From a virus, in the IMG/VR virus record IMGVR_UViG_3300031999_000029, positions 1-53,065 of that record: a DNA stretch of 53,065 bases; one strand, 5' to 3'. The translations under genes and the position numbers were made by a program. Below, piece by piece: positions 6,350-31,698 of this stretch. Position 1 is the stretch's first letter. The number at the start of each line of letters is the position of its first letter. The notes below the pieces were generated by a model. It did not search any database. It was not told the origin of the DNA and saw nothing but the letters and a program-made list of their open reading frames with translations.

Positions 6350-7801
6350 ATGAGTTGCTTGTCGCAGACGGACGAGGATCGCGTTCGCGCCGCCGATCTC
6401 CTACACCTGGGTTTGGCGCAAAAATCCGCTAGCGCGTTCATGAGCTACGTGCTGCGCGACGAGAAGACGAACGAGCGGATCAAGCAAGCCCCGATTCACC
6501 AGGCGTGGCAGGCGTTGATCAATCAACACCGCCGCTTGCTCATATGGTCGTCGGTGGAGAGCGGGAAAAGTTCGCAAGTGAGCGTCGGTCGCACGCTCTT
6601 CGAGCTTGGCCGGAATACCGGTCTCCGTTGTTGCATCGTCTCGAACACGCAAGGTCAGGCCGGCAAGATCGGCGGAATGATCGCGAAGTACATCGAGGGG
6701 TCGGTCGACTTGCACGAGGTGTTCCCCGATCTGTTGCCCGACGAGCCGTGGACGAGTAGTCAGCTATTCGTGAAGCGGCAGACGATGGCGAAAGATCCGT
6801 CGGTGCAGGTGTGCGGCATTCACGGCAACATTACCGGATCGCGTCTCGACGTGCTCATCCTCGACGACGTGCTCGACTACGAAAACTGTCGTACGCCCGG
6901 GTTGCGGCAGGACTTGTGGGACTGGTACCACGCGACGCTGTCGGGGCGTCTGACGGCGGACGCTCGGGTGATCGTGATCGGCACCGCCTATCATCCCGAG
7001 GATTTTTTGCACCGCCTCGCGCGCACCGGAGGGTGGGCGGCGTTTCGGTACCCGGTGATCGATCCGGACACGAACGAGATCCGTTGGCCCGAGCGTTGGC
7101 CGGAATCACGCATCGAAGCCAAGCGCATCGAGCTTGGCCCTCTCGAATTCGCGCGACAGATGATGTGCGTCGCCAGAGACGACGCCGAAGCGCGGTTCAA
7201 GAAGGAATGGATCGATCTATGCCTGGCGCGCGGCGCCGACCGCGAGCCGCGCCCGAGCCTCGAAGCCGTGCCGCCGGGTTGCCGCACAATTACCGGAGTA
7301 GACTTGGCGGTGTCGCGCAAGAAGATTTCGGGCGACACCATTTTCTTCACGATCTTGGTGTACCCGAACGGGGACCGCGAATTGTTGTGGATCGATGGCG
7401 GGAAGTACAGCGGGCCCGAGATCGTCGACAAGTTGGTCGACACGCACCGACGATTCGGATCGGTGATGTACGTGGAGAACAACGCGGCGCAAGAATACAT
7501 CCTGCAATTCGCGCGCAGTGAGAGTGCGGTGACGGTGCAGCCGTTCACGACGGGGCGCAACAAGGCCAACCCGGAATTCGGCATCGAGTCTCTCGCCGTC
7601 GAGATGGCGAATGGCAAGTGGATCATCCCGTGCAAAGATGGCCATATTCACAAACAAGTGTCGATGTGGATCCAAGAGATGCTCTACTACTCGCCGGCGG
7701 CGCACACGGGCGACCGTCTCATGGCTTCGTGGTTTGCCCGCGAGGGTGTCGGCCGCGCCAAAAAGAGAGCGTGGGTCGGAAGGATAAACAACGCTCGCTA
7801 G
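6350..7801 (+). CDS. terL: Terminase large subunit (packaging ATPase-nuclease)
   Basis: 483 residues, a normal length. It drives DNA into the prohead and cuts the concatemer. ATPase domain: Walker A-like SSVESGKSS (residues 67-75, catalytic GKS at 72-74) and Walker B VLILDDVLD (168-176) with two Asp. Nuclease domain (RNase H fold): D318 in GVDLAV, E376 in YVENNAAQE and D455 in HTGDRLMA are in the right order for the three metal-binding acids. The Walker A has Ser-Val-Glu where many terminases have an Arg/Lys, a mild oddity. The ATG follows a 37-base gap without a strong SD. Confidence 0.93.
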   Translation: MSCLSQTDEDRVRAADLLHLGLAQKSASAFMSYVLRDEKTNERIKQAPIHQAWQALINQHRRLLIWSSVESGKSSQVSVGRTLFELGRNTGLRCCIVSNTQGQAGKIGGMIAKYIEGSVDLHEVFPDLLPDEPWTSSQLFVKRQTMAKDPSVQVCGIHGNITGSRLDVLILDDVLDYENCRTPGLRQDLWDWYHATLSGRLTADARVIVIGTAYHPEDFLHRLARTGGWAAFRYPVIDPDTNEIRWPERWPESRIEAKRIELGPLEFARQMMCVARDDAEARFKKEWIDLCLARGADREPRPSLEAVPPGCRTITGVDLAVSRKKISGDTIFFTILVYPNGDRELLWIDGGKYSGPEIVDKLVDTHRRFGSVMYVENNAAQEYILQFARSESAVTVQPFTTGRNKANPEFGIESLAVEMANGKWIIPCKDGHIHKQVSMWIQEMLYYSPAAHTGDRLMASWFAREGVGRAKKRAWVGRINNAR

Positions 7802-8285: not shown

Positions 8286-8288
8286 CCC

Positions 8289-8579: not shown

Positions 8580-8589
8580 GGCGGCGAAC

Positions 8590-10344
8590 ATGAGTAGCGC
8601 AACGAGAGTAGAACCACGCGGCGTCAAGCGCATGCTGAGTGCTCTTGCCGACAAGCTCTACAAGAGCGGCGGCGCCAAGCAAACGGAGACGATTGCGAGC
8701 GCGATGCAGAAGATCGCGCGCCTCGGCATGAGCCCGAGGCAGCAAATGCTCAATCGTTTGTGGGCATGGTATCGCTGCGAGAACTACGCCACGCGGCGCG
8801 TGGATTGGAACGGGCACGAAGTCGTCGACGCGCTTTCTCAGGAGTCGATTTCGACCGCCGGCTTCATCCCTCCGGGGTTCTACGACGCCGGAGCCAACCT
8901 GCCGATCAAGTTCCGCAAGCCGACGGCGCCGTACGCGTTGGTCAAGGTGATCGTCGACCGCTTCACCGAGTTGCTTTTCAGCGAGCGCCATCACCCGTTC
9001 ATGCGAGTCGAGGGTGATTCCGATACGGAGAACTACGTCGGAGCGCTCATCGAGGCGTCGCGGCTGTGGCCGAACATGATTCAGGCGCGGCAGTACGGCG
9101 GCGCCATGGGCACGGTCGCCATCGGGTTCGAATTCGTCGAGGGTGTGCCCGAGGTCGAGGTGCACGATCCACGCTGGTGCATTCCGGACTTCAAGGATCG
9201 CACCAAGCTGATCCTGAATTCGATCGAGAAGCGGTATATGTACGTCGTCGAACAGCGCGACGAAGTCACTGGCGAGTACGAAGAGATCGCCATGTGGTAC
9301 CGGCGCGTGATCGACACGGAGCGCGACGTTCTCTTCAAGCCCGCCCCCGTGGGCGACGGCAACGAGCCGCAGTGGGAGGTCGACAAGGAGACCGTGCACG
9401 GGTTCGGATTCTGCCCCGTGGTGTGGATCCAAAATCTGCCGGTGCAGGACGACATCGACGGCGACTCGGACGTTCTCGGCATCTATGACACTGCCGAATC
9501 GATCGATTCGTTGCAGTCGCAGGCGAACCTCGGCACGATTAGCAACTGCGATCCGACGCTCGTGGTCGTGACCGAAGACGAAATGCCCGAGATCAAGAAG
9601 GGCAGCGACAACGCGATCAAGTTGTCGAAGGGTGACGCACACTACATGGAGTTGCAGGGCTCCGGCGCCAAGTCTGCGATCGAGTTGGCCGACAAGTTCC
9701 GAAGCCAAGCGCTCGAAGTGGCGCAATGCGTGCTCGAACATCCGGACATGAGCCAGCGCACCGCGACCGAGATCGAACGCGCGTACTCTTCCATGATCTC
9801 GAAGGCGGACGTTCTTCGAGAGCAATACGGCGAGAAGGGACTGAAGCCGCTCATCATGATGATGATCAAGGCTGTTCGCCTCTTGCAAGAGGGGAAGATC
9901 AACGCCGAAGAGGGAGTCATCGAGAAGTTCGAGATCCTGTTGCCGCCGAGAGTGGTCGACGACGAAAACGGCGAGACGAAAACGGAGCCGCAGAAGCTCG
10001 GGCCCGGCGGCGTCTTCAAGTTGCAATGGCCGAAATACTTCGAGCCGCTTCTCGCCGACGTCGAGCTGGCGACGCGGTCGGCGGTCGCCGCGAGCGCCGG
10101 CGGTCTCGTCGATTTGGAGCACGCGATCAAGTTCGTGGCCGAATACTTCAAGGTCGGCGACGTCGACGCTATGATCAAGCGCATCAAATCCGAGCAACAG
10201 AAGGCGAGCGGGGCGACGGCCGATCAGACGTTGCAGATGCTCGGCGGCGGTTCGATGCCTGGCAGACCGATGCCGGGCCGCCAGACGTTCGGCAGACCAA
10301 TGCCGGGACGCCCGATGTCGAGCCCGTACGATTCCGAAGAGTGA
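8590..10344 (+). CDS. Portal protein
   Basis: 584 residues. Twelve copies of a portal form the ring through which DNA enters and to which the tail joins. Evidence: position right after terminase; length; the N-terminal part with LKVIVDRF-like helices around residues 115-135 (VKVIVDRFTELLFSE); a central beta-rich region (EFVEGVPEVEVHDPRW); a helical stem region around 365-430. The C-terminus is low-complexity (MPGRPMPGRQTFGRPMPGRP), encoded by two 30-bp units at 10261-10290 and 10291-10320 that share 16 of their first 17 bases. GGCGGCGAAC precedes the ATG. Confidence 0.85.
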   Translation: MSSATRVEPRGVKRMLSALADKLYKSGGAKQTETIASAMQKIARLGMSPRQQMLNRLWAWYRCENYATRRVDWNGHEVVDALSQESISTAGFIPPGFYDAGANLPIKFRKPTAPYALVKVIVDRFTELLFSERHHPFMRVEGDSDTENYVGALIEASRLWPNMIQARQYGGAMGTVAIGFEFVEGVPEVEVHDPRWCIPDFKDRTKLILNSIEKRYMYVVEQRDEVTGEYEEIAMWYRRVIDTERDVLFKPAPVGDGNEPQWEVDKETVHGFGFCPVVWIQNLPVQDDIDGDSDVLGIYDTAESIDSLQSQANLGTISNCDPTLVVVTEDEMPEIKKGSDNAIKLSKGDAHYMELQGSGAKSAIELADKFRSQALEVAQCVLEHPDMSQRTATEIERAYSSMISKADVLREQYGEKGLKPLIMMMIKAVRLLQEGKINAEEGVIEKFEILLPPRVVDDENGETKTEPQKLGPGGVFKLQWPKYFEPLLADVELATRSAVAASAGGLVDLEHAIKFVAEYFKVGDVDAMIKRIKSEQQKASGATADQTLQMLGGGSMPGRPMPGRQTFGRPMPGRPMSSPYDSEE

Positions 10345-10373
10345 GAGAGTGGTCAAACTAACAGGAGGATGTC

Positions 10374-11474: not shown

Positions 11475-11478
11475 GGCA

Positions 11479-12057: not shown

Positions 12058-12059
12058 CA

Positions 12060-12693: not shown

Positions 12694-14142
12694 GTGGCCC
12701 GCGAAGACCTGATCCCCGTGAAGCGCGCCGTGACCCGAATGGGCACGTCGTACGAGCAGACCTATTGGGTGCGCGCTCGGGAGCTGCGCGAGACGTTCGA
12801 GAAGAGCGGCGCGACGGCGGCGTTGAATCGAGCATTGGGGTCCACAACGGGGGAAGGATCGGAGCAGTGGTCGACCCGTTATCGTCAACGGCTACTAGAC
12901 AAATTGGTAGAGGCGGGGTTTTCTGCTGAAGTGGTCGCTACGTGGCCGCAAAGCCGCCGAGAGCAAACACTGACTCCAACGGAGTTGGCTTCGACGAAAG
13001 ACGCTTTGAGCAAGGAAATGTTGTCCGAGGCGTCTTCAGGAACGAAAACCGCCAAGACTATGCTCGACGATTGGGTTTCGTCTCCCGGCGAAGAGCGGAC
13101 GGCGAAGCTCCGCTCTCTCGCCACGACGATCGCATTCGAGGATCTCGACGGTGAAGAGTGGGACAAAGCCGTGCAGCAAGAGCGCGATCTCTTGGCCGAG
13201 AACGCGACGCACCACTACGACAAGCACTATATGTCTTCGTCGATTGCGGAGTATCGAGGCCAGTTCAAGCGCGAGGCGTACGCCGACATGCGCGACGAGG
13301 TGATGAAAACTCTCGCCGACGAATCGGTGAGTGAAGACGAAGACGTGGCAGAGAACGCCAAGGAGATTTTCGAGCTTCGTCGAAGCACGAGTCCCGAGCT
13401 GCGCAAGCAAGCCAACGACATGATCAACGAGCGCGTCTCGTACGAGCTGGAGACGCAAGGGAAGACCGAAGATGCGAAGTTGAAGGCGGACGAAGCCGCC
13501 GAAGCCGACCGCGACGAGTACGTGAAGCGCGTCGACAACGAATTCATGCGCTACACGGACGAGGACATTGAAGCCGTGTACGCTCTCGCGGCGGTGTCGC
13601 AGTCTCTCTACGACGAAGACACGGTCACGCTCTATCGCGGCATCAAAGGCGAGTACGCGAAAGACATTCGAGAGGCGGCGATCGACGCCGTAGCCAAGAG
13701 CGGCGCTCTAGATCAAGCGGAGCTGTTCCCCAAAGACACCCCTCTTCCGGTTGCCTACGAGGAGAATTTGGTCAAAGTCGAAACAGGAGTGATGTGCTCG
13801 TTTTCTGAAGACGTGAACAAGGCCAGGGGATTTACGGGCGACGACGGCGTTGTGATGAAAATGACGGTGCCGAAGTCGTCGATCTTGGCGTCGTATCGTC
13901 TTGGGTCGGAGGTCATGCACCAAGGCGAGAAAGAGGTCATTGTGCTGACGAAGGGGGAGTTTCAGATCAACCCTAATGACATCGAAGATGCCAAGGCGAA
14001 AGACTCTGCCTCTCCATTTCAACCCATGTTCGAAGAGGGGCATTGGCGGCAAATCGCTCGTGGTCGTGGACAAGATTTGTCCGGCCCGTTGCCGCCGCGA
14101 GAGGAAGAGTACCAAGAATCAGAGGGCGAGTGGGCCCCGTAA
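12694..14142 (+). CDS. ADP-ribosyltransferase effector (R-S-E class) with N-terminal YWVR tag
   Basis: 482 residues from GTG. The C-terminal domain (about 290-430) has the full R-S-E signature of arginine-type ADP-ribosyltransferases: R315 in TLYRGI, S369/S371 in MCSFSED, and the E-x-E pair E412/E414 in HQGEKEVIV. Such enzymes transfer ADP-ribose from NAD to a target protein; T4 packages relatives (Alt) in its head. The N-terminus carries VKRAVTRMGTSYEQTYWVR (residues 9-27), echoed in the metalloprotease gene at 14952. A charged helical region (30-285) joins the two. I infer a virion-carried effector; target unknown. Confidence 0.8.
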   Translation: MAREDLIPVKRAVTRMGTSYEQTYWVRARELRETFEKSGATAALNRALGSTTGEGSEQWSTRYRQRLLDKLVEAGFSAEVVATWPQSRREQTLTPTELASTKDALSKEMLSEASSGTKTAKTMLDDWVSSPGEERTAKLRSLATTIAFEDLDGEEWDKAVQQERDLLAENATHHYDKHYMSSSIAEYRGQFKREAYADMRDEVMKTLADESVSEDEDVAENAKEIFELRRSTSPELRKQANDMINERVSYELETQGKTEDAKLKADEAAEADRDEYVKRVDNEFMRYTDEDIEAVYALAAVSQSLYDEDTVTLYRGIKGEYAKDIREAAIDAVAKSGALDQAELFPKDTPLPVAYEENLVKVETGVMCSFSEDVNKARGFTGDDGVVMKMTVPKSSILASYRLGSEVMHQGEKEVIVLTKGEFQINPNDIEDAKAKDSASPFQPMFEEGHWRQIARGRGQDLSGPLPPREEEYQESEGEWAP

Positions 14143-14157
14143 GCGAGGGAGAATACA

Positions 14158-14571
14158 ATGGCAGACGAAGCAATCAAGAAACCGGAAACCATTCACATCA
14201 AAAAGTTCGCCGACGGCAAAGAGACGCCGCTGGAGACTCACCAGAAGCTCGCTTGGAACAGTGCGCGCTGTCCGTGCGGTGCGCCGGCCGTCGTGCGCGC
14301 GATCTCGTTCGCTCCGTTCAAAGAGCTGAACGATCAGTGCCCCGAGCTTCTCGTGAAGATGGCGCACTCGAACGGCGGGCAGATCCCGATGGTCGAATTC
14401 AAGTACGGGAAGTTCGTTCGCATCGGCACCGCGTTCGCGTGCGCGCGGTGCAAGAAAGACCTGGCGAAAGCCATGAGCAAGAAGCCGTCGTGGGTGTTGT
14501 GTGAATTCGATTACGGGCCGAAGCCGATCAACGAACAGGTTTTGGTTCCGGGGGCGTTGGTGAAACCGTGA
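14158..14571 (+). CDS. Hypothetical zinc-binding protein
   Basis: 137 residues; ATG behind GAGGGAGAAT. CPCG (about 39-42) and CARC (about 102-105) could bind one zinc ion from distant loops. The rest is mixed alpha/beta. Placed between the ART and HNH genes; an accessory or immunity-type role cannot be excluded or supported. Confidence 0.6.
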   Translation: MADEAIKKPETIHIKKFADGKETPLETHQKLAWNSARCPCGAPAVVRAISFAPFKELNDQCPELLVKMAHSNGGQIPMVEFKYGKFVRIGTAFACARCKKDLAKAMSKKPSWVLCEFDYGPKPINEQVLVPGALVKP

Positions 14572-14948
14572 GTGAGAACCTTGCGAAGTGGGTCAAGCTG
14601 AAGACGCAAAAGCCCGACGAGAACGAAGAGAAGCCGCTGCATCCGGATGAGAGCAAGGCTCTCAAGAAGTTGCAGCGCGAAGCCAAGGCTGCCGGCGCGA
14701 CGCTGGCCACCGGTGGCAAGGGCGGATTGAGCCCGTCTCTCGTTCTCGGGGTCATGCGCCGCGACGAATTCAAGTGCAAAAAGTGCGGCAAGCAAGAAAT
14801 GCTGAGTGTGCACCACAAGGGTCACCTCGAAAACCCCGCGTCGAAGTGGCTCGCCAAGAAGGGCAAGAGCAACGACCCGAACGCAATCGCCACCATTTGC
14901 GCGTCTTGCCACGACGACATTCACGAGGAAGACCGCGAGAAGGGCTAG
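14568..14948 (+). CDS. HNH endonuclease-like protein
   Basis: 126 residues from GTG (GTGA overlap). Structural zinc knuckles C70-x-x-C73 and C111-x-x-C114 flank LSVHHKGH (H82, H83), N106 and CHDDIHEED (H115, H119): the beta-beta-alpha metal HNH pattern. HNH proteins nick or cut DNA. In many phages one sits beside the terminase and helps packaging; here it lies among the effector genes, so it may be a nuclease effector, a homing-type enzyme or the packaging HNH. Confidence 0.8.
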   Translation: MSENLAKWVKLKTQKPDENEEKPLHPDESKALKKLQREAKAAGATLATGGKGGLSPSLVLGVMRRDEFKCKKCGKQEMLSVHHKGHLENPASKWLAKKGKSNDPNAIATICASCHDDIHEEDREKG

Positions 14949-14951
14949 TGT

Positions 14952-16130
14952 GTGAGGGTCTCGCCGCAAAAGCTGTCCGCTCTCGTGCAAGTCGAGAAGG
15001 AAGTCACGCGCGGCGGACGCACGCATACGCAACACTATTGGGTGCGGGGGGATAGAGATGAGGCGGAACTTGGTAAGGCGGGGGTGCCGCGTTTAGACGT
15101 TGGACCGAAAGCGACGGGACACCCCAAAGCGCCTAAATTTGAGGTGGATTCCTCCGTTCGATTCGGGATTCAAGAGAAACTGAAGGCAGCGAAAGAGGAA
15201 GTGCAAAAAGCCGAGCGATGGGTTCGAACAGATCATCCTGAATTCACGTCTCTGTCGGATATTTCCCGTCGTGCGACTATTCCTTTTGAGGCGCAGCCCG
15301 CAATTAACGCAAGCACGATGGCCGTGACTGCGGGGGCAAGGGTTTTGTCTCACGAATTGCGGACGACGTTTCACGGAGACGGCAACGGGTTGGAGACGTA
15401 CGAGGCCCGAGACAAACTAGAAAACGAAGGCTGGCTCGGTTCGTGTTCTTCTACGGGCGACGTGAAGTTGCGCACGGATCAGCACTTGGCGATTTGGCGG
15501 GCGATCGATCGTGGCAAAGTGGAGTTCGAATCCGAGTACGAAGCATTCCACACACTGACGCACGAGCTGTTTCACAGCGTGAACTATGCGCAGTCCGAAT
15601 CGAAATCCGAAACGCTTCATCCGAAATCCGCGATTGAGGAAGCCATCACCGAGATCGATGCCCGTCAGTACACGGAATCAATCATCAAAGCATACGGCTT
15701 GAAGCTGAATCCGGAGCTGCATCGAGACGCCCCGCTTTATACGGATTCGTCCGTTTACAACATGACTGTTACGCGTTCGGTGGCATACACGAGTTTCGTG
15801 CAGAATTTCGGGCGCACCGTGTCGGCAATCGAATTTGGATCGCCAGGTCAGATAGGGACCGAACAGATCAAGGGAGAAGACGCACACGAATGGGCGACGG
15901 GGTGGGCGGCAAAACTCAAGAGTGTGGGAGCCGATGAACGATACGAGACTTTGGCCGAGCGGGCTTTCGAGACATTTCGCGTGCCGGAGACGGCGCCTGA
16001 TTACGAGAATCAAAAACGACAGCTCGCCAACGACATGAAATTTTGGCTTGAAGGGAAAGGCCCGGAGACTATTTCTGGAATGAGGCGCGTGATTCAAGAG
16101 CGCGCAACGCGGGCGAAGGAGTTTGTGTGA
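14952..16130 (+). CDS. Zinc metalloprotease effector (HExxH) with N-terminal YWVR tag
   Basis: 392 residues from GTG, no strong SD. HTLTHELFHSV gives H204-E205-x-x-H208; a likely third ligand lies in SAIEEAITEI (E229 or E230), about 21 residues on, as in gluzincins. The N-terminus has VEKEVTRGGRTHTQHYWVRG (13-32), matching the ART gene's tag in the pattern V-x-R/K-x-V-T-R-x-G-x5-Q-x-Y-W-V-R. A flexible linker and a mixed domain separate tag and protease. Probable role: cleavage of a host protein after injection, or virion maturation; the tag and neighbours favour the first (inference). Confidence 0.75.
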   Translation: MRVSPQKLSALVQVEKEVTRGGRTHTQHYWVRGDRDEAELGKAGVPRLDVGPKATGHPKAPKFEVDSSVRFGIQEKLKAAKEEVQKAERWVRTDHPEFTSLSDISRRATIPFEAQPAINASTMAVTAGARVLSHELRTTFHGDGNGLETYEARDKLENEGWLGSCSSTGDVKLRTDQHLAIWRAIDRGKVEFESEYEAFHTLTHELFHSVNYAQSESKSETLHPKSAIEEAITEIDARQYTESIIKAYGLKLNPELHRDAPLYTDSSVYNMTVTRSVAYTSFVQNFGRTVSAIEFGSPGQIGTEQIKGEDAHEWATGWAAKLKSVGADERYETLAERAFETFRVPETAPDYENQKRQLANDMKFWLEGKGPETISGMRRVIQERATRAKEFV

Positions 16131-16378
16131 TGGATCCCATCATCCAAGCCTTGATCGAAGCCGAGCGCGTCATCCTCGACACCAGAGCGACGCACGGAGA
16201 GATCCAAGCCGCGATCTCCAAAGTCGACGCCTTGAACAATGCGACGGCGTCGGCCGCGATCCGCCTCACGGCCGGCGAGTGGCATTCTCCGGAACACATG
16301 AACGGCAGCGGAACGCCGCAACCCGAGCCGAGCCCGAAGGCGAAAAGGCTCTCGACTTTCTTGGACCGAAACAGGTAA
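16130..16378 (+). CDS. Small hypothetical protein
   Basis: 82 residues from ATG overlapping the previous stop (TGATG); a GTG one codon earlier is possible. A helical first half (IIQALIEAERVILDTRATHG) is followed by a Pro/Ser-rich tail. No family recognised. It sits between two tagged effector genes. Confidence 0.5.
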   Translation: MDPIIQALIEAERVILDTRATHGEIQAAISKVDALNNATASAAIRLTAGEWHSPEHMNGSGTPQPEPSPKAKRLSTFLDRNR

Positions 16379-16387
16379 GGATCTAGT

Positions 16388-17380
16388 ATGTCGGACACCT
16401 GGCAAGAAGAGCTGCATCCTCGAAGCGAAGCCGGCAAGTTCGCGGCGAAAGCAGAAGCCGCGCAAAATGCCGCGGAAGAGTCGATTGCAAAAGAGTCGGA
16501 GGCGCTGTCAAAGCTGTACCGCGCGAAGTCCGGCCCGAAAATTCCGAACGCTACGCCTGGTGTCTCGGAAGCAGATCGCACGAAAGCTATCGCCAAGGGA
16601 AAGGCGATTAGCTCCCTCTGCGGTGACAAGATAAAGGATCAGACGATTCGTGACTTGCTCGACGAAGGACGTTGGGATCTTGAGGCTTCCGAGAGGAAAA
16701 CGATGTACCGGTCGCCCGGTGAAATTTTCGAAGTGACGATTACACCGCGCGCGACAGAAACCGTCAAAGAAACAAGATCCCAATGGAGTGACAATCCGAT
16801 TTACTACGACGAGAGCCTTTCCGAGATCGGCGAAGACGGCTATCCGAAACTCCGCTCGGATTCTGGGTATTCGGAGAGTATCCCCGAGGAAGCCGGCGAG
16901 CCTGGTTTCATCTATCGCGGTGTTGGCCATGCCGAGTATCAAAGCATCGTCGAGTCGGGGAAGGTGCAATCTCGCGGCGCGTACAACATCGGTGATCGGC
17001 AAGTTGGGTTGACGTATTTTGCCGACCGCGGCGGAACGGCAGCAAGCTATGCCGGCGGGTTTCAGCCTTATCACAAGTTGCCGACGTTCGAAGAGCCGTC
17101 GTATATTGTGAAGATCGCGCGACCGCCGGATGAATTGATCGACAAGACCGCTGCGCCCGAGGGGGAGGTTGGTGTTCGCGGTGCGGTTCCCACAACCGAA
17201 ATTGTTGCGGTGTACGAGGTTCGCCCCTACATGATGAAGAGTGGTTCTGTCGAGTTGATGCGCGGCTACTCGAAAGGCGAGACGGTGTATGGTGAGGGAA
17301 GCCGCGCGTCGCCGAGCGTGCATGTAGCCTACAAAAAGGTCTACGATTCGCGCGAGAGCGGCGCTACTACGAAAGAGTAG
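16388..17380 (+). CDS. ART-like effector with N-terminal EELHPR-GKFA tag
   Basis: 330 residues. The N-terminal tag WQEELHPRSEAGKFAAKA (5-22) is shared with the gene at 18600. The C-terminal part (about 170-285) reads like an ADP-ribosyltransferase-fold domain: R177 in GFIYRGVG, GLTYFADRGGTAASYAGG (207-224) as the NAD-binding YF...A..YA block, and Glu in EGEVGVRGAVP (258-268) as the candidate catalytic acid. This set resembles ART relatives but is less clear than the 12694 gene, so the fold call is inference. A helical segment lies between tag and domain. Confidence 0.58.
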   Translation: MSDTWQEELHPRSEAGKFAAKAEAAQNAAEESIAKESEALSKLYRAKSGPKIPNATPGVSEADRTKAIAKGKAISSLCGDKIKDQTIRDLLDEGRWDLEASERKTMYRSPGEIFEVTITPRATETVKETRSQWSDNPIYYDESLSEIGEDGYPKLRSDSGYSESIPEEAGEPGFIYRGVGHAEYQSIVESGKVQSRGAYNIGDRQVGLTYFADRGGTAASYAGGFQPYHKLPTFEEPSYIVKIARPPDELIDKTAAPEGEVGVRGAVPTTEIVAVYEVRPYMMKSGSVELMRGYSKGETVYGEGSRASPSVHVAYKKVYDSRESGATTKE

Positions 17381-17382
17381 TC

Positions 17383-18603
17383 ATGCCTTCCAAGTCTCGA
17401 GTCTACCAGGCGACGATGAACGAGCACCGGCGCCGGCTTGCTCGGGTGGTAGACCGCGGATCTGTGCCGCAGCTTCGCAAGCTCTACGATGATGCCGGCA
17501 AGTTCGCGGCGAAGGCTGCCGGGGACGCCGCGAATCGAATGGCGGCGCTCAAAGACAAGTGGCCGAAAGCCGAGTTCTCGGGAGACCTGTCGTCTGACGA
17601 AATCAATAGTGCGTTGCAACACGATCGCGACAGGCACCGAGACATCACTCGGGCGTTCTCCCACGGCGAGCTGTCTTCTGATGAGGTCAAAGAGTTGGGC
17701 GTCTCCCTCGGTTCGAATCTTCCGATCAAGTTGGATCCGGATCGGGACTACTACCACGTGACGACCGGCGCCTCGGGCGTTCTCGAATCGGGGCTGAAGA
17801 CGCGGGACGAGCTTGGGGGCGTGGCGTCCGGTCTCGGCGGCGGTGCTTCCGATACCATCTCCCTTACTGACGATCCCGCAGTGGCGCAAACCATTTACGA
17901 CACGATGCGAGAAGGGCAACAGGTGGCGAGGGGGGAGATCAAACCGATCGATCTCTACAATGCGGCGTTCGAAGGCAAAGGGGCGAAGCGCGCGTTTGCC
18001 GAGGATCTCATTCGAATGCACGACGCCCACCATTCTCCTGGCGATCCGCTTCCTTCGGGAATGGATCTGGCACTAGCCGAGAGGCGAAGCGTGCGCGCGA
18101 ACGAATCGAGTACGGATTCGACCGTGCCGCGAGTCGGCATGGGCATGTTCTTTCCGGAGCCTGCTTTGCCGGCTGGTGCCGAGGGCTTCAACCTGCACAC
18201 GACCGCCGACGGCAAAACCGTGTTCGGCGGGTATGTTCGGGGAATGACAGACGAAGAGAAGCTCGACAGCCGCATGGAATTCTACAAGCGGTTCCTGATG
18301 GTGCGAGAGGGCGCCGGCGGTCCCGAGGATCCCCTTTTCTACATGACGGACTATCACGCACTCGCGGCTAAACCTGTCGAAGACATCGCCTTGCTGAAGG
18401 TCCGCGCCACCCCCGGATCCCAAGGCTACCGCATGAGCGCACTCGGAGAGATCCGCGTCTACACCGGCGACGTTCTCAAGGTGACCGACGTGGAGCGCCG
18501 CCCGATGTCTTCTCGCCACGTGGCTCCCGAGGTCTCCAAGCGCGGCGACAAGGAAGAGACGGCGCAGCTCGCCCGGCTGTCGAAGGCTAAGAGAGCTGCA
18601 TGA
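17383..18603 (+). CDS. Chimeric protein: head-protein-like N-terminus + ART-like domain
   Basis: 406 residues. Residues 7-38 align with residues 6-37 of the minor head protein at 19491 (17 of 32 identical; both read EHRRRL-x-R-x-VDR and KLY). GKFAAKA (39-45) then repeats the tag of the 16388 gene. The catalytic-looking region has YYHVTTGASGVLESGLKTR (123-141), ISLTDDPAVAQTI (159-171) and near the end SALGEIRVYTGD. This H-x-T, SLT, E order recalls H-type ADP-ribosyltransferase folds such as KptA/DarT relatives. Probably a virion-borne effector that uses a head-protein segment for packaging (inference). Confidence 0.55.
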   Translation: MPSKSRVYQATMNEHRRRLARVVDRGSVPQLRKLYDDAGKFAAKAAGDAANRMAALKDKWPKAEFSGDLSSDEINSALQHDRDRHRDITRAFSHGELSSDEVKELGVSLGSNLPIKLDPDRDYYHVTTGASGVLESGLKTRDELGGVASGLGGGASDTISLTDDPAVAQTIYDTMREGQQVARGEIKPIDLYNAAFEGKGAKRAFAEDLIRMHDAHHSPGDPLPSGMDLALAERRSVRANESSTDSTVPRVGMGMFFPEPALPAGAEGFNLHTTADGKTVFGGYVRGMTDEEKLDSRMEFYKRFLMVREGAGGPEDPLFYMTDYHALAAKPVEDIALLKVRATPGSQGYRMSALGEIRVYTGDVLKVTDVERRPMSSRHVAPEVSKRGDKEETAQLARLSKAKRAA

Positions 18604-19415
18604 ACGGCGTCGCCGAATGGACTGAAGAGCTGCACCCGCGCGGGCCGGGCGGCAAGTTCGCGTCGAAATCCGGCGCCGCCTCTCGCATCTCGAAAGAGAG
18701 CGAGTGGAAAGAGACGCGGACGCTTCGACGTTTGAGTGAAGCCAAGAGCAAGCCGCAATCTCCGCGAGACGCGTCGACGCGAATCGACTGGGAATACGAC
18801 GACAGGATGCGGGCGGTGCGCCCGGATCAGTACGTTCCGACGCGAGCCTCTCTCACCGAGGCGGAAAGTCGGATGAAGGGCTTCGATGTGGAGCACGCCG
18901 CCGTGTACGACGTCGAGGGCAACATGCTTTGTCGCTTGACGGACCGCAAAAGTGATAGCGTGGCGATCACGCCAGAGTTGCGCGATGAGTGTAGGAAGCG
19001 CGGCGACGCGGTCTTCACGCACAACCATCCGGAGGGCGACTATTTCAGTGGGGAAGATTTGATGCTGGCGAATGCCGCCAATCTGAAAGAAATGCGTGCC
19101 GTGCGCCCGAGCGGAGAGACGATCGTCGTCGCGCGTCCCGAGACCGGTTGGCCGAAATTGGCGGCGAACGAAGCACTTGCAGACGATCTCAACACGGCGT
19201 ATGCCCAAGCCAATCAGTCGATGCGAGATCGCATGGGCGTCGTCGTTACCGCTGCCGGCGGCAAGCCGTGGGAAGGGTCGTCGGCAAAAGGATACTCAAA
19301 GGAGTTGTGGAATGAATTCCGATTCGAAGAGGCGCACAAATATCTTACACCGGCTCTCGAAAAACACGGGATCCGCGTTGCGATCGTTCCGGCGGGCCAT
19401 CGACCCCAAGCATGA
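18600..19415 (+). CDS. JAMM/MPN metalloprotease-like effector with EELHPR-GKFA tag
   Basis: 271 residues; ATG overlaps the previous stop. Tag: WTEELHPRGPGGKFASKS (7-24). The C-terminal domain shows the JAMM metal-binding signature: H141-x-H143-P in FTHNHPEGDYFSGEDL, S150 and D153, with an upstream Glu (E98 in FDVEHAAVYD) as the expected acid. JAMM proteins are zinc proteases or isopeptidases; RadC-like bacterial versions share HNHP..S..D. The sequence departs from RadC elsewhere. Activity and target unknown; in context an injected effector is likely. The last third overlaps a small ORF with its own SD. Confidence 0.72.
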   Translation: MNGVAEWTEELHPRGPGGKFASKSGAASRISKESEWKETRTLRRLSEAKSKPQSPRDASTRIDWEYDDRMRAVRPDQYVPTRASLTEAESRMKGFDVEHAAVYDVEGNMLCRLTDRKSDSVAITPELRDECRKRGDAVFTHNHPEGDYFSGEDLMLANAANLKEMRAVRPSGETIVVARPETGWPKLAANEALADDLNTAYAQANQSMRDRMGVVVTAAGGKPWEGSSAKGYSKELWNEFRFEEAHKYLTPALEKHGIRVAIVPAGHRPQA

Positions 19416-19488
19416 TCCGCGCGAAGTGATCCACTTGGATCAGTCTCACGCCGATCTCGTGTACGGTCCGCCGAAGGGCAGGATCTAG
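19312..19488 (+). CDS. Small overlapping ORF with own ribosome-binding site
   Basis: 58 residues in another frame, starting 103 bases before the end of the JAMM gene and running to three bases before the next start. AAAGGAG sits 7-8 bases before the ATG, a good SD. The product is basic (NSDSKRRTNILHRLSK) and ends HADLVYGPPKGRI. It may be an independent small protein. Alternatively, the JAMM gene once ran on in this frame, with a frameshift joining the two. Confidence 0.4.
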   Translation: MNSDSKRRTNILHRLSKNTGSALRSFRRAIDPKHDPREVIHLDQSHADLVYGPPKGRI

Positions 19489-19490
19489 TC

Positions 19491-20447
19491 TTGCCAAAGC
19501 TGCCAGGCGTCTACCGCTCGATGCTCACGGAGCATCGCCGTCGGCTCGACCGTCTCGTCGACCGGCAGGGGCTCGTCAGTCTCAAAAAGCTGTACGCGAA
19601 CGCGCAATCCGAGCTGGAGCGTCAGCTCCGAGTGCTGCCGAAGCGTCTCGGCAACTCGTTCACAGCGCACCATTCGCGGATCATGCTGGCTCAAGTGAAG
19701 CAAGGCCGAATGATGTTGGCGCAGAAGATGGCTGGGGAGATGGCGGGATTGACGCGGCAGGCGCAAACGGAGTCGTTGCGCGGATTGATCGTTGACTTGA
19801 CTACGCTCGAACGTGAGTTCACGGGCGCCGACGTCGTGTTGCCCATCGAGGACGCGGCTCTGTTTCAAGGCGTCATCGACGGCCGGCGCGAGTCCCTGTT
19901 GCGCACGAACGACGAGAGCTTGGCTTACTACACCGCCGATGTGGTCGAGGGTATCGAGGACGATCTTTCGTTGGCCTTGGCGATCGGAGAAACGACGTCC
20001 GACACGATCGATCGAGTCATGGACGGGCTCGACAACGAGTGGTGGCAGGCCGAGCGCATCGTTCGCACCGAAACCCTTTGGGCCGCGAATTCCACGCAAG
20101 CCGACGGTCTCGAAGCGTCGGCCGAAGTGTTCGACGATTTGCACATGCGGTGGGAAGAATACGTTGACGATTCCACGGGGCAGCCGTTGGACGAGAGGGT
20201 CGACGACGATTCTCTCGCCATGCACGGGCAGATCATTCGCCCCGGCGGACAGTTCTACTTTCCCGACAGCTACATCGATCGTTCGGATCCGAAAGTTGCC
20301 AAGCGGCTCGAACGGTTTCGCGGTCAGTCGTGGGCGTTCCCCCCCATGCGACCGCAAGATCGAGCTACGGTGAGTCCGGTACGTCCGGGTTGGGGGATCC
20401 CCGGTTGGCAATGGGTGGACGGAGATCGGGTTGTGTGGCCCGTATGA
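19491..20447 (+). CDS. Minor head protein, Mu gpF / SPP1 gp7-like (TTG start)
   Basis: 318 residues. The C-terminal half contains RIVRTETLWAANSTQADGLE, W-x-E-Y-x-D-D and LAMHGQIIRPGGQFYFP in the order of the phage head morphogenesis (MuF) domain: R-T-E, then W...D, then H...G...F. Such proteins bind the portal and stay inside the head. Residues 6-37 are shared with the 17383 protein. TTG is chosen because it is the first start after the previous stop and preserves the shared N-terminus; the SD is weak. The final cysteine motif typical of Mu gpF is missing. Confidence 0.75.
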   Translation: MPKLPGVYRSMLTEHRRRLDRLVDRQGLVSLKKLYANAQSELERQLRVLPKRLGNSFTAHHSRIMLAQVKQGRMMLAQKMAGEMAGLTRQAQTESLRGLIVDLTTLEREFTGADVVLPIEDAALFQGVIDGRRESLLRTNDESLAYYTADVVEGIEDDLSLALAIGETTSDTIDRVMDGLDNEWWQAERIVRTETLWAANSTQADGLEASAEVFDDLHMRWEEYVDDSTGQPLDERVDDDSLAMHGQIIRPGGQFYFPDSYIDRSDPKVAKRLERFRGQSWAFPPMRPQDRATVSPVRPGWGIPGWQWVDGDRVVWPV

Positions 20448-21076: not shown

Positions 21077-21078
21077 TC

Positions 21079-22392: not shown

Positions 22393-22401
22393 GAGATGAC
22401 C

Positions 22402-24123: not shown

Positions 24124-25065
24124 ATGCCGGACAACGTGCAGGTAGAGAACCAAGGAACAGGGACACCAGGAACAGGACAAGGGGCGGTAAACCAAGGGGC
24201 ACCAAATCCCCAAGCCGCACCGCAGAATCCACCGGCGGCTGCCGGAGGCGACAACGGCGGAACCGCGAACGCGGCTCCCGCGACGTCGCAATCGAACATC
24301 GGAAAGGTTGGCGGCGGCAAAAACCTCGTCATCCCCGAGCACAGCATGAAGCGCATCAAAGAAGAGCACTTCACGAAGGGGAAGAAAGAGGCATTGTCGG
24401 CGTTGGCGAAAGAGCTTGGCTACTCTTCACCGGAAGAGATGCAAGGGGCTCTCAAAGCCGTCCGCGCGAAAGGCGGATCGACCCGTTCTGATAACGGCGA
24501 CGGAGAACCCAAGCCGAATCAGAATCCGCAGAATCAGCCGAACGGCGGGAAGAATGCTCAACAGGCGAAGGGCAACAACTCGAACGTCGACAGACGCTCG
24601 TGGGAGAAGCTCGACAAAGAGCAGAAGCGGTGGGGCGAAGAGCGGGATCAACTCCTGAAGCAGATCCGATCGGAATCGTCTCGGCGGAAAGAGTTGCAGC
24701 AAGCGCTCGACGCGAAAGAGGCGGAAATGGCGTTGCGCGAGACCGCAGTGATCTCGGGCGTCAAAGACGTCGACTACGCGATTCGTTTGCTCACTCGTCA
24801 CTTGGACGGGAAAACCGAAAAGGAGCTTGCCACGTTCGACGAGAGCAAGTTCTTCGGAGAGCTGCGGACTTCCCACCCGTACCTGTTCGGTGAGGTTGTG
24901 AAGGCGGCAAACACTGGCACCGGCACGAACGGAAACCCGCCCGCGCCGAAGCCGGGAGCTGCCGCAGGCGCAGCCGCAGCCGGCGGACAAGCGGACGCGA
25001 AGAAAATGTCGCGCGAGGAATTCCTCGCTCACATCGCCAAGCGCGGTTTGAGCGTCGGACCGTAG
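24124..25065 (+). CDS. Capsid scaffolding protein
   Basis: 313 residues, directly before the major capsid gene. It has the usual make-up: Gly/Asn/Pro/Gln-rich N-terminus (1-65), a helical part with LGYSSPEEMQGALKAV (99-114), a second disordered stretch, a strong coiled coil (RRSWEKLDKEQKRWGEERDQ onward, about 155-205), a Gly/Ala-rich linker and a short C-terminal helix (MSREEFLAHIAKRG). Scaffolds guide prohead assembly and leave or are cut. No capsid protease was found in the window. AAGAGGAAGC precedes the ATG. Confidence 0.72.
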   Translation: MPDNVQVENQGTGTPGTGQGAVNQGAPNPQAAPQNPPAAAGGDNGGTANAAPATSQSNIGKVGGGKNLVIPEHSMKRIKEEHFTKGKKEALSALAKELGYSSPEEMQGALKAVRAKGGSTRSDNGDGEPKPNQNPQNQPNGGKNAQQAKGNNSNVDRRSWEKLDKEQKRWGEERDQLLKQIRSESSRRKELQQALDAKEAEMALRETAVISGVKDVDYAIRLLTRHLDGKTEKELATFDESKFFGELRTSHPYLFGEVVKAANTGTGTNGNPPAPKPGAAAGAAAAGGQADAKKMSREEFLAHIAKRGLSVGP

Positions 25066-25168: not shown

Positions 25169-26572
25169 ATGCCTGATTTTTCAACGATTTTGATGGCTCC
25201 GGACATCCGAGCGCTCACTCAAGAAAACATTCTGGAGCGCGCCTTTCACGACGCACTCTATCCACGGAACCTGTTCCGTGGTGAGGCCATGCCGCAACTG
25301 TGGCCCAACAACGTCGGCGACACGATGGTGTTCACCGGCACCGGTCTTCTGAAGACGAAGCAGAAGGCGCTCGTGCCCGGCACCGATCCGACCCCGAGTC
25401 AGTTCCAGTATGAGCAGTGGACGGCTCAGTTGCAGCAATACGCGGACGCGATCGACACGCACATGCCGTCGAGCATCACCGCGATCGCTTCGCTGTTTCT
25501 CCGCAACGCGCAGCAACTCGGCCTCGGCGCCGCGCAGACGCTCAACCGCATCTCGCGCAACAAGATGTACAACGCGGCTCTCTCCGGCTCGACCGTCGCG
25601 GACGGCGGCCCGCAGAGCGGCACGACCCTTCGGGTCAAGCGGCTGAACGGCTTCACCCGCGCCCGCCGGCCGGATCTTCCGCTCGGCAGTGCGGTGCGTT
25701 TCGACACCGTGTCGCCGAACAACAAGTTGGCGATCCGGGTGTTCGACAACGGCGCTGACGCGGCGTTCAACGTGATCGGCTTCTCGGCCGACACCGCCGG
25801 CGACGAGGCGGGCCCCGGCACCTTGACTCTGGAATCCGCGATGACGGCAGTGGCCGCTCGCGCCTATGTGGTCGCAAACGACCGCACCGTTCTGGTGCGT
25901 GTCGGCGGCGGCCTCAAGGTCGACGATGTCGGCTCCGGTGACAAGTTCACCCTGGCGGACATCCGATCGGCAGTGGCGCGGCTCTGGTCGCAGAACGTGC
26001 CGGAGCAAGCCGACGGTCGCTTCCACTGTCACATCGATCCGATCAGCCAGGCTCAGATTTTCGCCGACGATCAGTTCGCTCGGCTGCTGACCTCGTTGCC
26101 GGATTTTTTCATGTACCGGCAATTCGCCATCGGTGAGCTGCTCGGCACCGTGTTTTTCCGCAACTCCGAGTGCCCCGGCCCGGACACCGTCGAAGGCGGT
26201 CTCACGGCGTCGTACTCGCAGGACGATCCGTTCGCCGGCGAGCTTTACAACGACGGCACCACGAGCGGCGTGAAGATTCATCGTCCGCTGTTCGTCGCGC
26301 AAGGTCTACTCATGGAATACTACCAGGATCTTTCCGGCCTCATCACCGAGGCGGGGATCACGGGTGCCGTGGGCGAGCCCAAGGTGACGAACAACGGCAT
26401 CGAGATTTACAGCGATCGGATCCAGCTCATCATCCGTTCGCCGCTCAACCGGTTGCAGGACATGGTCAGTACCGCGTGGAAGTTCATCGGTGACTGGCCC
26501 ATCCGAACCGACAGCGTGACGGGCGACGCCGCCAGGATCAAGCGCGCTCTGATCGTCGAGCACGGAGAGTAG
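25169..26572 (+). CDS. Major capsid protein
   Basis: 467 residues after a scaffold gene and behind GTAGGAGAT. The order scaffold - this gene - connectors fixes the call. The sequence is mixed alpha/beta, with a long helical segment (SSITAIASLFLRNAQQLGLG, about 100-119) compatible with an HK97-fold spine helix and a C-terminal region VSTAWKFIGDWPIRTD. I do not recognise a named family, and no cleavage site is evident. It forms the icosahedral shell. Confidence 0.8.
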   Translation: MPDFSTILMAPDIRALTQENILERAFHDALYPRNLFRGEAMPQLWPNNVGDTMVFTGTGLLKTKQKALVPGTDPTPSQFQYEQWTAQLQQYADAIDTHMPSSITAIASLFLRNAQQLGLGAAQTLNRISRNKMYNAALSGSTVADGGPQSGTTLRVKRLNGFTRARRPDLPLGSAVRFDTVSPNNKLAIRVFDNGADAAFNVIGFSADTAGDEAGPGTLTLESAMTAVAARAYVVANDRTVLVRVGGGLKVDDVGSGDKFTLADIRSAVARLWSQNVPEQADGRFHCHIDPISQAQIFADDQFARLLTSLPDFFMYRQFAIGELLGTVFFRNSECPGPDTVEGGLTASYSQDDPFAGELYNDGTTSGVKIHRPLFVAQGLLMEYYQDLSGLITEAGITGAVGEPKVTNNGIEIYSDRIQLIIRSPLNRLQDMVSTAWKFIGDWPIRTDSVTGDAARIKRALIVEHGE

Positions 26573-29685: not shown

Positions 29686-31698
29686 GTGGCTGGTTTCATT
29701 CGTCGCTTTCAGTCGTTCCCCGGTGTGGAAGTCATCACAGCAATCGAGGGTGTAGTGATCGTCGATCTTCCGCCTCCCGGCAGCATCAACGGTGTCGGCG
29801 TCGGCACGGTCGCCATCGTTGGTGAGTTTGCGGACATGACGTTCGCAACGTCTGTCGACTCCGTCGGCGTCGTTTCCACCAATCCGATCCCCGTCGAGGT
29901 TTTGACCGGGCAGGACATGCTCAACAAGGTGGGCGGCTTCGACTCCACGATCGGCGACACCGGTATCTCGGGCGGCAACGGCTTCATCGCGCTGCGCAAC
30001 AAGAAGTTTTCGCGGCTCGTCTTGGTGCCGATCAATCTGGCCTCCCCTCTCGGCGTGCGGCTCGCGCGATTCTTGCCGACGAACAAGGGTTCGACCAATC
30101 CGACCCCGGCGGTGCCGATCGCGGCTGCGACGGTGGCGGCGGGGCGCGAATTCAAATCGTCAACCAACCGCGCGCGTCTCGGCGCTCGCGTGGTCTTCAC
30201 GGACGCCGGCCACTACAAGCAAGGCGTCGACGGCGCCGTGACCGTGGCGGGCTCTCCCGCCGCGACGCAACTTTTCACCGCTGCCGGCGGCGCGTTCACT
30301 ACGGCGAAGAATGGCGGACCGGTTCAAGAGGGTGACATTCTGGTGGTCGGAGTCATCGGCGCGGCTGGTGCGCAAGGCAACAACGCCGGAGCCGGTTTGA
30401 ACTACGGCAATTTCAGAGTCGCCGCCGACGCAAGCTCGGCGACGCAACTCACTGTCGAGATGATCGACGGCATCAACTTCGATTGGGCGACGTCTGGCGG
30501 CAGCCTGGCGTGGCGCATTCATCCGTCCACCGACGCCGACACCGGCCTCAACCATCAGATGTCGGAAGCCGCTGGCTACACACTGCCGGCGCGGCCTCTC
30601 GATTCGACGATCGCCGCGAGCATCACTCTCGGCCCGACTCTCTCTCCACCCGTGCCGACCGCGTCGTCGTGGGATCCGCTGTCGGGCTTGCTCATGAAGA
30701 CGTCGCCGACGTCTCCCGGGCTGGCGTACGACGCCGATGTGCAGGCTCCGAATGCCGTGAGTCACGCGAAGCTCACGGCGCTCTATTCGACCGCGATTGA
30801 CGCGTTGCTGACCGACGATCTGCCGGCCCGCGATGTCAACATCGTGGTCGCGGCGAGACACAACTCGGACATCCGAACGAAGCTCAAGTCGCACGTGCTC
30901 ACCGCGAGCACGCAAGGCGTTGGCCGAGTGGCGGTTGTGTCGCCGGAGCTGACAACCCTATCGATCGATACGGTGGTCGGCGACAGCGATCCGGGCGTCG
31001 GGGCCAATCGCAACGAGCGCATTTTCTACGATTGGCCGGGCGCTCTCACCTTCATTCCGGAGGCGGTGGGCTTCAACATGAAGGGAGCCGACGGCAAGCT
31101 CTACGCCGACGGCAACGTCGACACGCATTTCGACGCGTGGATGGCGAGCATTTTGTCGGTGCTCGCTCCCGAGCGCAACCCCGGGCAAGCGGCGCCGCCG
31201 ATCCCCGAGATCCTCGCCCCCGTGAAGGGCGTGCAGCGCGGAGTGACCAAGTTGCAGATCGGCGACTACACGTTGCTTCGGCAGCGCGGAGTCGCGGCCT
31301 TGCGAATCGATCGCACGGTCGGGCCGATCATTCAATCCGGAATCACTTCGTCTCTCATTTCGGGCGAGAAGAACATCAATCGTCGGCGCATGGCGGACTT
31401 CCTCGAAGACTCCATGTCGCAACGGCTGGTGCAGTTCTCCAAGTTGCCGCTGACCCCGGCTCTCAAAGACACCATCGTCGGTGAAATGGATGCGTTTCTC
31501 GCGGGTCTGTTGTCGATTAACAACCCGCCGGCGCAGCGCATTGCCGGGTACATCATCGACGACAAGAGCGGTAACACGCCGGATCTCGAAGCCAAGGGCA
31601 TTTTCGTGGCGATTGCGAAAGTGCGCACGTTGGCGACGGCCGACTTCATTGTGCTCCAGGTGGAAGCGGGCGAGGGTGTGAACGTCACCGCGAAGTAG
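29686..31698 (+). CDS. Tail sheath protein (GTG start)
   Basis: 670 residues, a normal size for a large sheath. Starts MAGFIRRFQSFPGVEVI, the usual 'pgv.v' opening. The C-terminal third has the conserved sheath region: QIGDYTLLRQRGVAALRIDR, then KNINRRRMADFLEDSMSQRL (the 'nvRRl...i..sl' block) and a final beta domain LATADFIVLQVEAGEGVNV. An inserted beta-rich domain lies around 110-300. The sheath contracts to drive the tube into the cell. CTGTAGGAGG precedes the GTG; a 64-base gap lies upstream. Confidence 0.88.
   Translation: MAGFIRRFQSFPGVEVITAIEGVVIVDLPPPGSINGVGVGTVAIVGEFADMTFATSVDSVGVVSTNPIPVEVLTGQDMLNKVGGFDSTIGDTGISGGNGFIALRNKKFSRLVLVPINLASPLGVRLARFLPTNKGSTNPTPAVPIAAATVAAGREFKSSTNRARLGARVVFTDAGHYKQGVDGAVTVAGSPAATQLFTAAGGAFTTAKNGGPVQEGDILVVGVIGAAGAQGNNAGAGLNYGNFRVAADASSATQLTVEMIDGINFDWATSGGSLAWRIHPSTDADTGLNHQMSEAAGYTLPARPLDSTIAASITLGPTLSPPVPTASSWDPLSGLLMKTSPTSPGLAYDADVQAPNAVSHAKLTALYSTAIDALLTDDLPARDVNIVVAARHNSDIRTKLKSHVLTASTQGVGRVAVVSPELTTLSIDTVVGDSDPGVGANRNERIFYDWPGALTFIPEAVGFNMKGADGKLYADGNVDTHFDAWMASILSVLAPERNPGQAAPPIPEILAPVKGVQRGVTKLQIGDYTLLRQRGVAALRIDRTVGPIIQSGITSSLISGEKNINRRRMADFLEDSMSQRLVQFSKLPLTPALKDTIVGEMDAFLAGLLSINNPPAQRIAGYIIDDKSGNTPDLEAKGIFVAIAKVRTLATADFIVLQVEAGEGVNVTAK

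Follow-up and report, generated by a model that had tools for sequence, protein, structure and literature searches.

The capsid targeting sequence of bacteriophage T4 is N-terminal and is cut by the prohead protease. For the T4 internal proteins a short capsid targeting peptide has been described by Mullaney and Black (cited in PMC9024508), and the excerpted text of the citing paper presents DarB of phage P1 as an antirestriction head protein of which the N-terminal 30 residues are enough to bring a reporter into the capsid, with no consensus reported among the Dar N-termini. Other work, as far as its excerpts go, places ADP-ribosyltransferase (ART), zincin and JAB/RadC domains near, or in fusion with, portal, MuF and protease proteins and predicts that they are packaged and injected (PMC5512222, PMC9503650). 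Here we analyse five genes of a virus record from IMG/VR (IMGVR_UViG_3300031999_000029; 53,065 bases, hereafter the window, by which we mean this whole stretch of DNA). They join short N-terminal tags, called tag 1 and tag 2, to bodies of different predicted catalytic type, and they lie among head genes. The tags are probably modular labels for loading cargo into the phage head.

Results

Leaders of the five genes

The original prediction assigned tag 1 to two of the genes, tag 2 to two others and a composite leader to the fifth, and all three assignments held. Within the window, only the 16388 and 18600 genes (genes are named by their first base; Table 1) have the core of tag 2, W-x-E-x2-HPR-x3-GKF, in each case at the N-terminus, and a tag-2 profile run on the 484 open reading frames (ORFs) of the window gave 3.1e-11 for 18600, 3.8e-9 for 16388 and 0.092 for 17383. 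The 17383 gene follows a third design, in which some 38 residues of a minor head N-terminus are followed by GKFAAKA, the motif that is also present in the 16388 and 18600 genes. Identity with the minor head protein is 50% over the first ~38 residues (E 5.8e-6) and 60% over 30 residues (9e-8), and the gene can be read as a head domain, a tag and a variable domain in succession, with a very short head part. Tag 1 is carried by the 12694 and 14952 genes: a profile built from non-window sequences ranked them first among the same ORFs (3.1e-9 and 2.8e-7, the third at 0.1), and so did a profile built from three tags of the loci L003 and L004 only (3.4e-7 and 3.8e-6, no third at E<=3). The tags of the window have the short N-terminal position of a capsid targeting sequence.

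L003 and L004 were located via the minor head protein, independently of the tag, and in each of them one or two genes for tag 1 plus an R-S-E ART lie upstream of that protein. A pattern search for tag 1 gave 13 stretches, namely L125, which is a near-identical relative of the window, L004, and 11 contigs with an unrelated family of ~820-residue proteins. The three members scanned had no Pfam match. Its contigs are L123, L124, L126-L132, L134 and L135; further proteins starting with the tag-1-like YQVRKxRRDGxxQRYW are encoded in L123, L130 and L132.

Tag 2 in viral contigs

Conservation of the tags beyond this genome, which had been predicted, was found for both. With the pattern W-x-E-x2-HPR-x3-G-K/R-F, tag 2 was detected in at least 118 stretches of viral contigs. 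The search used the pattern of the window itself, so that every one of these loci has the tag by design; the informative part is what is attached to it and what lies next to it. A relaxed form of the tag occurs 166 times in ORFs of the 118 loci versus 0 after one shuffle; two or more tagged ORFs are present in 24/118 loci, and an ORF with two or more tags in 18/118. Before counting, we dropped three rows that came from copies of the window itself (L001/L002), together with duplicates of >=70% identity. The 147 entries were reduced to 108 representatives (103 for tag 2, 5 for tag 1), and removal of a tag-2 protein of 43 residues left 102 for the Pfam and PHROG scans. Tallies below refer to the best 25 families, one ORF may match several of them, and neighbour ORFs longer than 1000 amino acids (aa) were excluded.

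As predicted, tag 2 precedes varied C-terminal domains. The 102 non-redundant proteins matched 45 Pfam families at 0.001, the best 25 of which include ADPrib_exo_Tox (13 proteins), Zeta toxin (4), Topoisom_I, 2'-5' RNA ligase and AAA_33 (3 each), LPD3, PBECR3, Nudix, ART and acetyltransferase (2 each) and S78 protease (1). Among the best 25 of 77 PHROGs are Alt-like ART, minor head and head maturation protease (5 each) and a DarB-like antirestriction protein (1, at 2.8e-178). HExxH is present in 15/103 tag-2 representatives and the JAMM pattern in 2/103, against shuffle expectations of 2.15 and 0.1, respectively.

The distance from the upstream stop to tag 2 is at most 60 residues in 42 of the 103 representatives, 60-120 in 14 and more in 47. 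Upstream parts of these 47 proteins (>=120 aa) matched portals (four families; 7, 6, 6 and 5), head maturation protease (6), minor head proteins (5, 4 and 4) and Nudix. Around tag-2 genes that are separate, the two nearest ORFs on each side (112 ORFs) have portal, head morphogenesis, head maturation protease and minor head proteins at the top of the list; from the fifth ORF outward (102 ORFs) the list is led by terminases, methyltransferases and ParB, with portals and major head protein at 2 each. Variants of the tag are found in named phages as well. They are N-terminal in Gordonia phage Boopy (gene 78, FDEAKHPRGADGRF, beside the portal gene) and Streptomyces phage Gilgamesh (gene 48, WNPALHPRDSKGRF from residue 32, two genes downstream of a portal-MuF fusion gene). 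Pseudomonas phage Orimi01 and Faecalibacterium phage FP_Brigit have them at an internal position, the former in its portal-position protein, the latter in its annotated portal.

Zeta toxins and ARTs are able to act in the producing cell. It might be argued, then, that the tagged proteins are late-expressed toxins or metabolic effectors which act there and are never packaged, and that their neighbourhood reflects shared transcription, the more so as packaging is what we infer from sequence. We hold this to be very unlikely: tag 2 also occurs in proteins with matches to head proteases, portals, minor head proteins and DarB-like proteins, and a leader is common to, or exchanged with, the minor head protein.

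A very long protein of L015 (from 8295, + strand) has tag 2 near its N-terminus and, alone among the tagged proteins, shows a BLAST relationship to DarB, the antirestriction protein of P1; it is probably the DarB-like PHROG member counted above. Given its proven N-terminal packaging signal, P1 DarB itself was expected to be a carrier of tag 2, but it does not have the tag. Another tag-2 protein (L005:6057-6851, - strand), with close copies on several contigs, has a weak RelA/SpoT match (0.0012, below the cut-off) and is a possible head-carried alarmone enzyme.

Tag 2 in Gastranaerophilales genomes

A search of bacterial and archaeal genomes (257 Gb) with a slightly narrower pattern gave 70 tag-2 stretches, 43 of which are titled Gastranaerophilales. 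The tags of the genomes lie close to the start of their genes, with an ATG within six codons before W in 62/74 and an upstream stop within 60 aa in 67/74. These positions bear on the possibility that the tags are processing sites, where a head protease would cut and free the cargo from a portal, a minor head protein or a polyprotein. Tag 2 does lie between head domain and variable domain, genes for head maturation proteases are often next to it, and tags of similar style repeat between the modules of the polyproteins described below. Nevertheless we regard such a role as quite unlikely, as the ATG so close before the genome tags leaves cleavage with almost nothing to release; moreover, the scaffold of the window is a separate gene, and Pfam and PHROG revealed no head protease in the ORFs of the window that were scanned.

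Head-tail_con, a portal of podovirus type, was present at full length in 8/8 Gastranaerophilales genomes probed (1e-91 to 1e-120) versus 0/14 controls. Terminase was also found in this set of eight genomes, in which no Phage_Mu_F, Phage_capsid or SPP1_portal was found. Tag 2 occurs in 5/146 Gastranaerophilales genomes, all of them among the 24 with Head-tail_con at E<=1e-39 (Fisher p = 8.2e-5), a cut-off that was chosen after the list had been seen; this and the other p values ignore kinship. The association is one in trans. Head and tail genes form a compact podovirus-like cluster (L229, L231-L239; G001-G008), and the tag-2 genes lie elsewhere in the genome: in 11 portal-bearing genomes 25/27 tags are on contigs without a portal, which need not mean that they are distant, because many contigs are short, and the remaining two are 196 kb and 23 kb from the portal. 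The ORF in scaffold position, between portal and major head protein, ends with REDIL[FY]P plus two to seven codons in 8/10 modules; of the genome tag-2 proteins, 32/74 have a relaxed version of the motif versus 4/74 in one shuffle.

In five genomes the head module adjoins rlmH and an oxidoreductase gene. This neighbourhood was not seen in G006 or in three G008 regions, and the G001 contig is too short. Mobile elements are also known to integrate at rlmH, so that common descent of the module at this place is not established. The cluster represents either a gene-transfer-agent-like or a prophage family. Among the literature matches listed, no paper had both Gastranaerophilales and gene transfer agents. 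Two Gastranaerophilales tag-2 proteins, L157 and L211, have C-termini that look by eye M23 peptidase-like and phage-type lysozyme-like.

Leader exchange and repeated tags

An exchange of leaders at the tag is seen in one contig. This contig, L241, matches the window over 208 bases (16243-16449, 95%), ending in tag 2 of the 16388 gene, and over 143 bases (17491-17633, 99%), starting at GKFAAKA of the 17383 gene. The two segments are joined at 23 bases that are common to both window sites and have other genes around them, and the start of the 17383 body carries tag 2 as its leader. This copy may be broken, because the 17383-like body soon diverges (131-residue ORF), and the joint may be a chimeric assembly.

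A search with the tag-1 ARTs retrieved L143 and L144, in which tags of similar style are repeated within polyproteins. L144 encodes at 4171-12315 (+) a polyprotein that is at least 2715 residues long and contains a Cys/His-rich tag of ~31 residues, AVTRTxDGKFASxGPCxxxGCG..GHxGAH, in nine copies; five modules have an R-S-E-like ART pattern, and the two scanned both matched DRAT (8.9e-11, 1.9e-7). In the two ORFs of L143 (1640-3250 and 4037-8908, +) a GGxGSGxxGHxGRPGxRGGS tag occurs seven times ahead of modules; five modules were scanned, with one match to ART-PolyVal (1.4e-5) and one to DRAT (0.001).

The joint in L241 raises the question of whether the tags serve as seams for recombination, or as inert linkers, letting domains be swapped via short conserved DNA without any targeting role. 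Consistent with a seam, GGCAAGTTCGCG is identical in three window genes, and tag 2 sits at the border of head domain and variable domain. Only 3/10 same-residue codons of tag 2 differ between 16388 and 18600; for tag 1 within the window the count is 6/8. We consider a mere seam unlikely, however. The tags of the L144 and L143 polyproteins keep their peptide while 354/678 (52%) and 237/378 (63%) of same-residue codon pairs differ, which argues for selection on the peptide and not for recent gene conversion. In the genomes the closeness of the tags to the upstream stop or ATG leaves little upstream sequence to swap, and tag 2 tracks the head module in trans, although this last result depends on the cut-off.

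Predicted catalytic bodies of the five genes

The original prediction was partly confirmed with regard to the genes and their residues. The five ORFs are at the predicted places, followed by the MuF-like gene (Table 1). In the 12694 protein R315, S369, E412 and E414 were found exactly as claimed; R315, E412 and E414 are invariant in a four-row alignment, and S369 is outside the invariant columns. The three tag-1 ARTs of L003 and L004 matched DRAT at 4.9e-6 (L003, above the cut-off), 3.6e-4 and 9e-4, and no match to the 12694 protein was found in the PDB. The expected HExxH of the 14952 protein is HELFH from residue 204, with acidic residues after it as candidates for a third zinc ligand; no family match was above the cut-off, and one near-identical contig is the sole relative of the body in viral contigs. 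BLAST found the 12694 and 14952 bodies to be without similarity outside tag 1. The JAMM motif of the 18600 protein, HNHPEGDYFSGED (HxHPx5Sx2D), starts at residue 141. This protein has no Pfam match, and no relatives of its gene were found in viral contigs; its body is homologous (6.6e-14) to L085, a tag-2 protein with a JAMM motif.

The ART-like character ascribed to the 16388 and 17383 proteins was not borne out, as they showed no similarity to any ART family in Pfam or PHROG and nothing credible in the PDB; for these putative domains the assignment was made by eye alone and is unconfirmed. No relatives of the 16388 body were found in viral contigs. AlphaFold modelled the 12694 protein from the four-row alignment with a mean predicted local distance difference test score (pLDDT) of 51, drawing tag 1 as a low-confidence hairpin, and the 16388 protein from sequence alone with 33.5, an unusable model. 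Overall there is a good case for a predicted ADP-ribosyltransferase in 12694 and a predicted JAMM protein in 18600, and a fair one for a metallopeptidase in 14952.

Gene order and other features of the window

The genes of the head module are in the order terminase, portal, small genes, the five effector genes, MuF-like gene, small genes, scaffold and major head protein, which places the effector genes between the portal (8590) and the minor head protein (19491). The tail sheath gene at 29686 indicates a contractile-tailed phage. Window bases 8000-32000 had no match among named phages, nor had the minor head protein and the 12694 protein.

Table 1. Coordinates of the effector genes, their tags and the head and tail genes of the window
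Feature	Position	Strand	Evidence
Terminase large subunit	6350..7801	+	phrog_38 6.1e-63
Portal protein	8590..10344	+	SPP1_portal 2.7e-5 (just below cut-off); phrog_145 8.2e-10
Tag 1 + R-S-E ADP-ribosyltransferase-like protein, 482 aa	12694..14142	+	Pfam DRAT 1.7e-4 (below cut-off), residues, tag profile
Tag 1 of 12694 gene, ending Y-W-V-R	12718..12774	+	Pattern and tag profile
Tag 1 + HELFH metallopeptidase-like protein, 392 aa	14952..16130	+	Motif, tag profile; DUF3920 0.027 (below cut-off)
Tag 1 of 14952 gene	15003..15047	+	Pattern and tag profile
Tag 2 + C-terminal domain ART-like by eye only, 330 aa	16388..17380	+	Tag profile 3.8e-9
Tag 2 of 16388 gene, WQEELHPRSEAGKFA	16400..16444	+	Pattern
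Hybrid: minor-head-like first ~38 residues, GKFAAKA, domain ART-like by eye only, 406 aa	17383..18603	+	
GKFAAKA seam in hybrid 17383 gene	17497..17517	+	Pattern, L241 leader swap
Tag 2 + JAMM-motif protein, 271 aa	18600..19415	+	HNHPEGDYFSGED; body homologous to L085
Tag 2 of 18600 gene, WTEELHPRGPGGKFA	18618..18662	+	Pattern
MuF-like minor head protein, N-terminus common with hybrid	19491..20447	+	Phage_Mu_F 0.0032 (below cut-off); phrog_3517 head morphogenesis 0.0014
Scaffolding protein	24124..25065	+	Phage_scaffold 2.1e-6 (below cut-off); phrog_194 0.0037
Major head protein	25169..26572	+	phrog_1357 1.1e-13
Tail sheath	29686..31698	+	phrog_23 2.7e-6 over C-terminal part

Lysis-like neighbours, which had been proposed for the upstream side, are unconfirmed: the 10374 gene, the sole small gene examined there, had no PHROG match. 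The head module also contains a protein with an RyR domain (11479-12057; Pfam RyR 2.3e-10). Between the tag-1 genes lie a small protein (14158-14571) with look-alikes in L003 and L004 and an HNH endonuclease (14568-14948; Pfam, PHROG). The small proteins at 20989-21228 and 22009-22392 have a common C-terminal stretch of 44 residues (68% identity) with the motif YYVxxTGxxxYxKSNPGP, and similar motifs are also C-terminal in L004. The C-terminal RGGxYYVSxTGxKVY of the 22009 protein may resemble the basic adaptor domain of chloroviruses, although Pfam gave no match. The neighbouring small ORFs 22396-22638, 22643-22831 and 22842-23048 have short motifs in common pairwise and are possibly further small head proteins with a tag of their own.

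Discussion

The proposal that the tags are virion-loading signals of a modular system for injected host-takeover proteins finds partial support in our data: the tags are conserved, the domains attached to them are diverse and the genes belong to a head module, but two of the five catalytic assignments are unconfirmed. If the tags are loading labels, the five genes would constitute a cassette of head-cargo effectors made together with the head proteins. A short leader (tag 1, tag 2 or the minor-head N-terminus with the second half of tag 2) would be the address to the growing head, where it would bind the portal, the minor head protein or the scaffold/shell as the likely partner. The enzyme would be enclosed in the head, ejected with the DNA and injected, and would act on host proteins early in infection as a means of host takeover. 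The 12694 protein might ADP-ribosylate its targets and the 14952 protein cleave them, while the JAMM protein (18600) might cut isopeptide or peptide bonds.

Several observations weigh against the loading of cargo by these tags. Tag 2 is also found within portals and minor head proteins, for which a loading signal is unnecessary, and the portals beside it come from several families, so that no single conserved partner is evident. None of the P1 proteins DarB, DdrB, DarA, DdrA, Ulx, Pro and Prt has tag 2. The close tag-2 codons of the window and the L241 join exactly at the tag are as expected for a recombination seam. In Gastranaerophilales the co-occurrence with Head-tail_con is weaker at the family's own cut-off (48/146 genomes, p = 0.0033) and at E<=0.001 (79/146 genomes, many of them with partial matches, p = 0.044). 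Scanning of 120 of the 175 ORFs beside tag-2 genes in 41 genome loci gave a terminase but no portal or shell protein among the best 25 of 113 families, which include topoisomerase II, a kinase and an ABC transporter; a simple head-operon rule is therefore disfavoured for the genomes. The models of 12694 and 16388 are too poor for a test of the fold. Finally, virion loading as such is deduced from the sequence. Tag 2 occurs within head parts too and is a recombination seam, so that the data do not compel one to see it purely as a packaging signal. Its place inside portals and the leader exchange are compatible with a loading label, and they also keep alive the explanations by seams and by processing.

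A wider proposal sees in tag 2 and the tags akin to it a postal code for head cargo that is common to different phages, used with several portal families, on separate genes as well as in polyproteins, and takes the Gastranaerophilales cluster for a gene-transfer-agent-like delivery particle with addressed cargo. This is possible but doubtful in our estimation. What looks new is that one short motif appears on separate effectors, on fused effectors and on head-protease-like and DarB-like proteins, in the company of several portal families. Among the titles and abstract openings listed by searches of open-licence PMC papers, none names the tag motif or a general phage cargo tag. Head-packaged effectors have mostly been recognised singly, by fusion with a head protein or by neighbourhood. 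A tag that marks cargo would allow unknown proteins to be called head cargo from their sequence and could disclose many new early effectors. It would make the choice of effectors for the head directly testable by reporter fusions, and could serve as a handle for loading proteins to be delivered by harmless phages.

In comparison with known systems, the T4 capsid targeting sequence is close in manner, in that a short peptide likewise brings unrelated proteins into the head, and the N-terminal position of the tags recurs beyond the window, in 42 of the 103 viral representatives and 67 of the 74 genome tags counted above. In the excerpts available the T4 signal is described for one phage, whereas tag 2 occurs with several portal families, and the likeness is one of description only. 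DarB of P1 has an N-terminal loading signal as proposed here, and L015 provides a DarB-like protein with tag 2, although tag 2 is not the sequence of the P1 DarB N-terminus. The MuF polymorphic toxins, as excerpted from PMC5576092, similarly tie variable toxin domains to a head protein in the packaging module, and portal, scaffold and major head protein do surround our effector genes. Those toxins are fused to the MuF domain, while here the effector is a separate short-tagged gene or has ~38 residues in common with the minor head protein; among the ten window proteins scanned Phage_Mu_F matched only 19491, and no MuF domain N-terminal to a toxin was found. Large cargo proteins of crAss-like phages are located close to the portal and are ejected together with the DNA or before it, but in the excerpted text of PMC10136315 no shared short tag is seen, unlike here. 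Polyvalent proteins, head-fused ARTs and Nudix proteins have the same kinds of enzymes together with head genes as the window has, and what the excerpts of PMC5512222 and PMC9503650 describe are domain fusions and neighbourhoods, with no short shared tag. Polyvalent proteins hold 2 to 15 domains per polypeptide and the window genes at most one recognisable domain each; in L143 and L144 tags of similar style delimit the modules of polyproteins. By analogy, the tag system may work like the signals of T4 and P1 DarB while using the enzymes of the head-fused effector systems.

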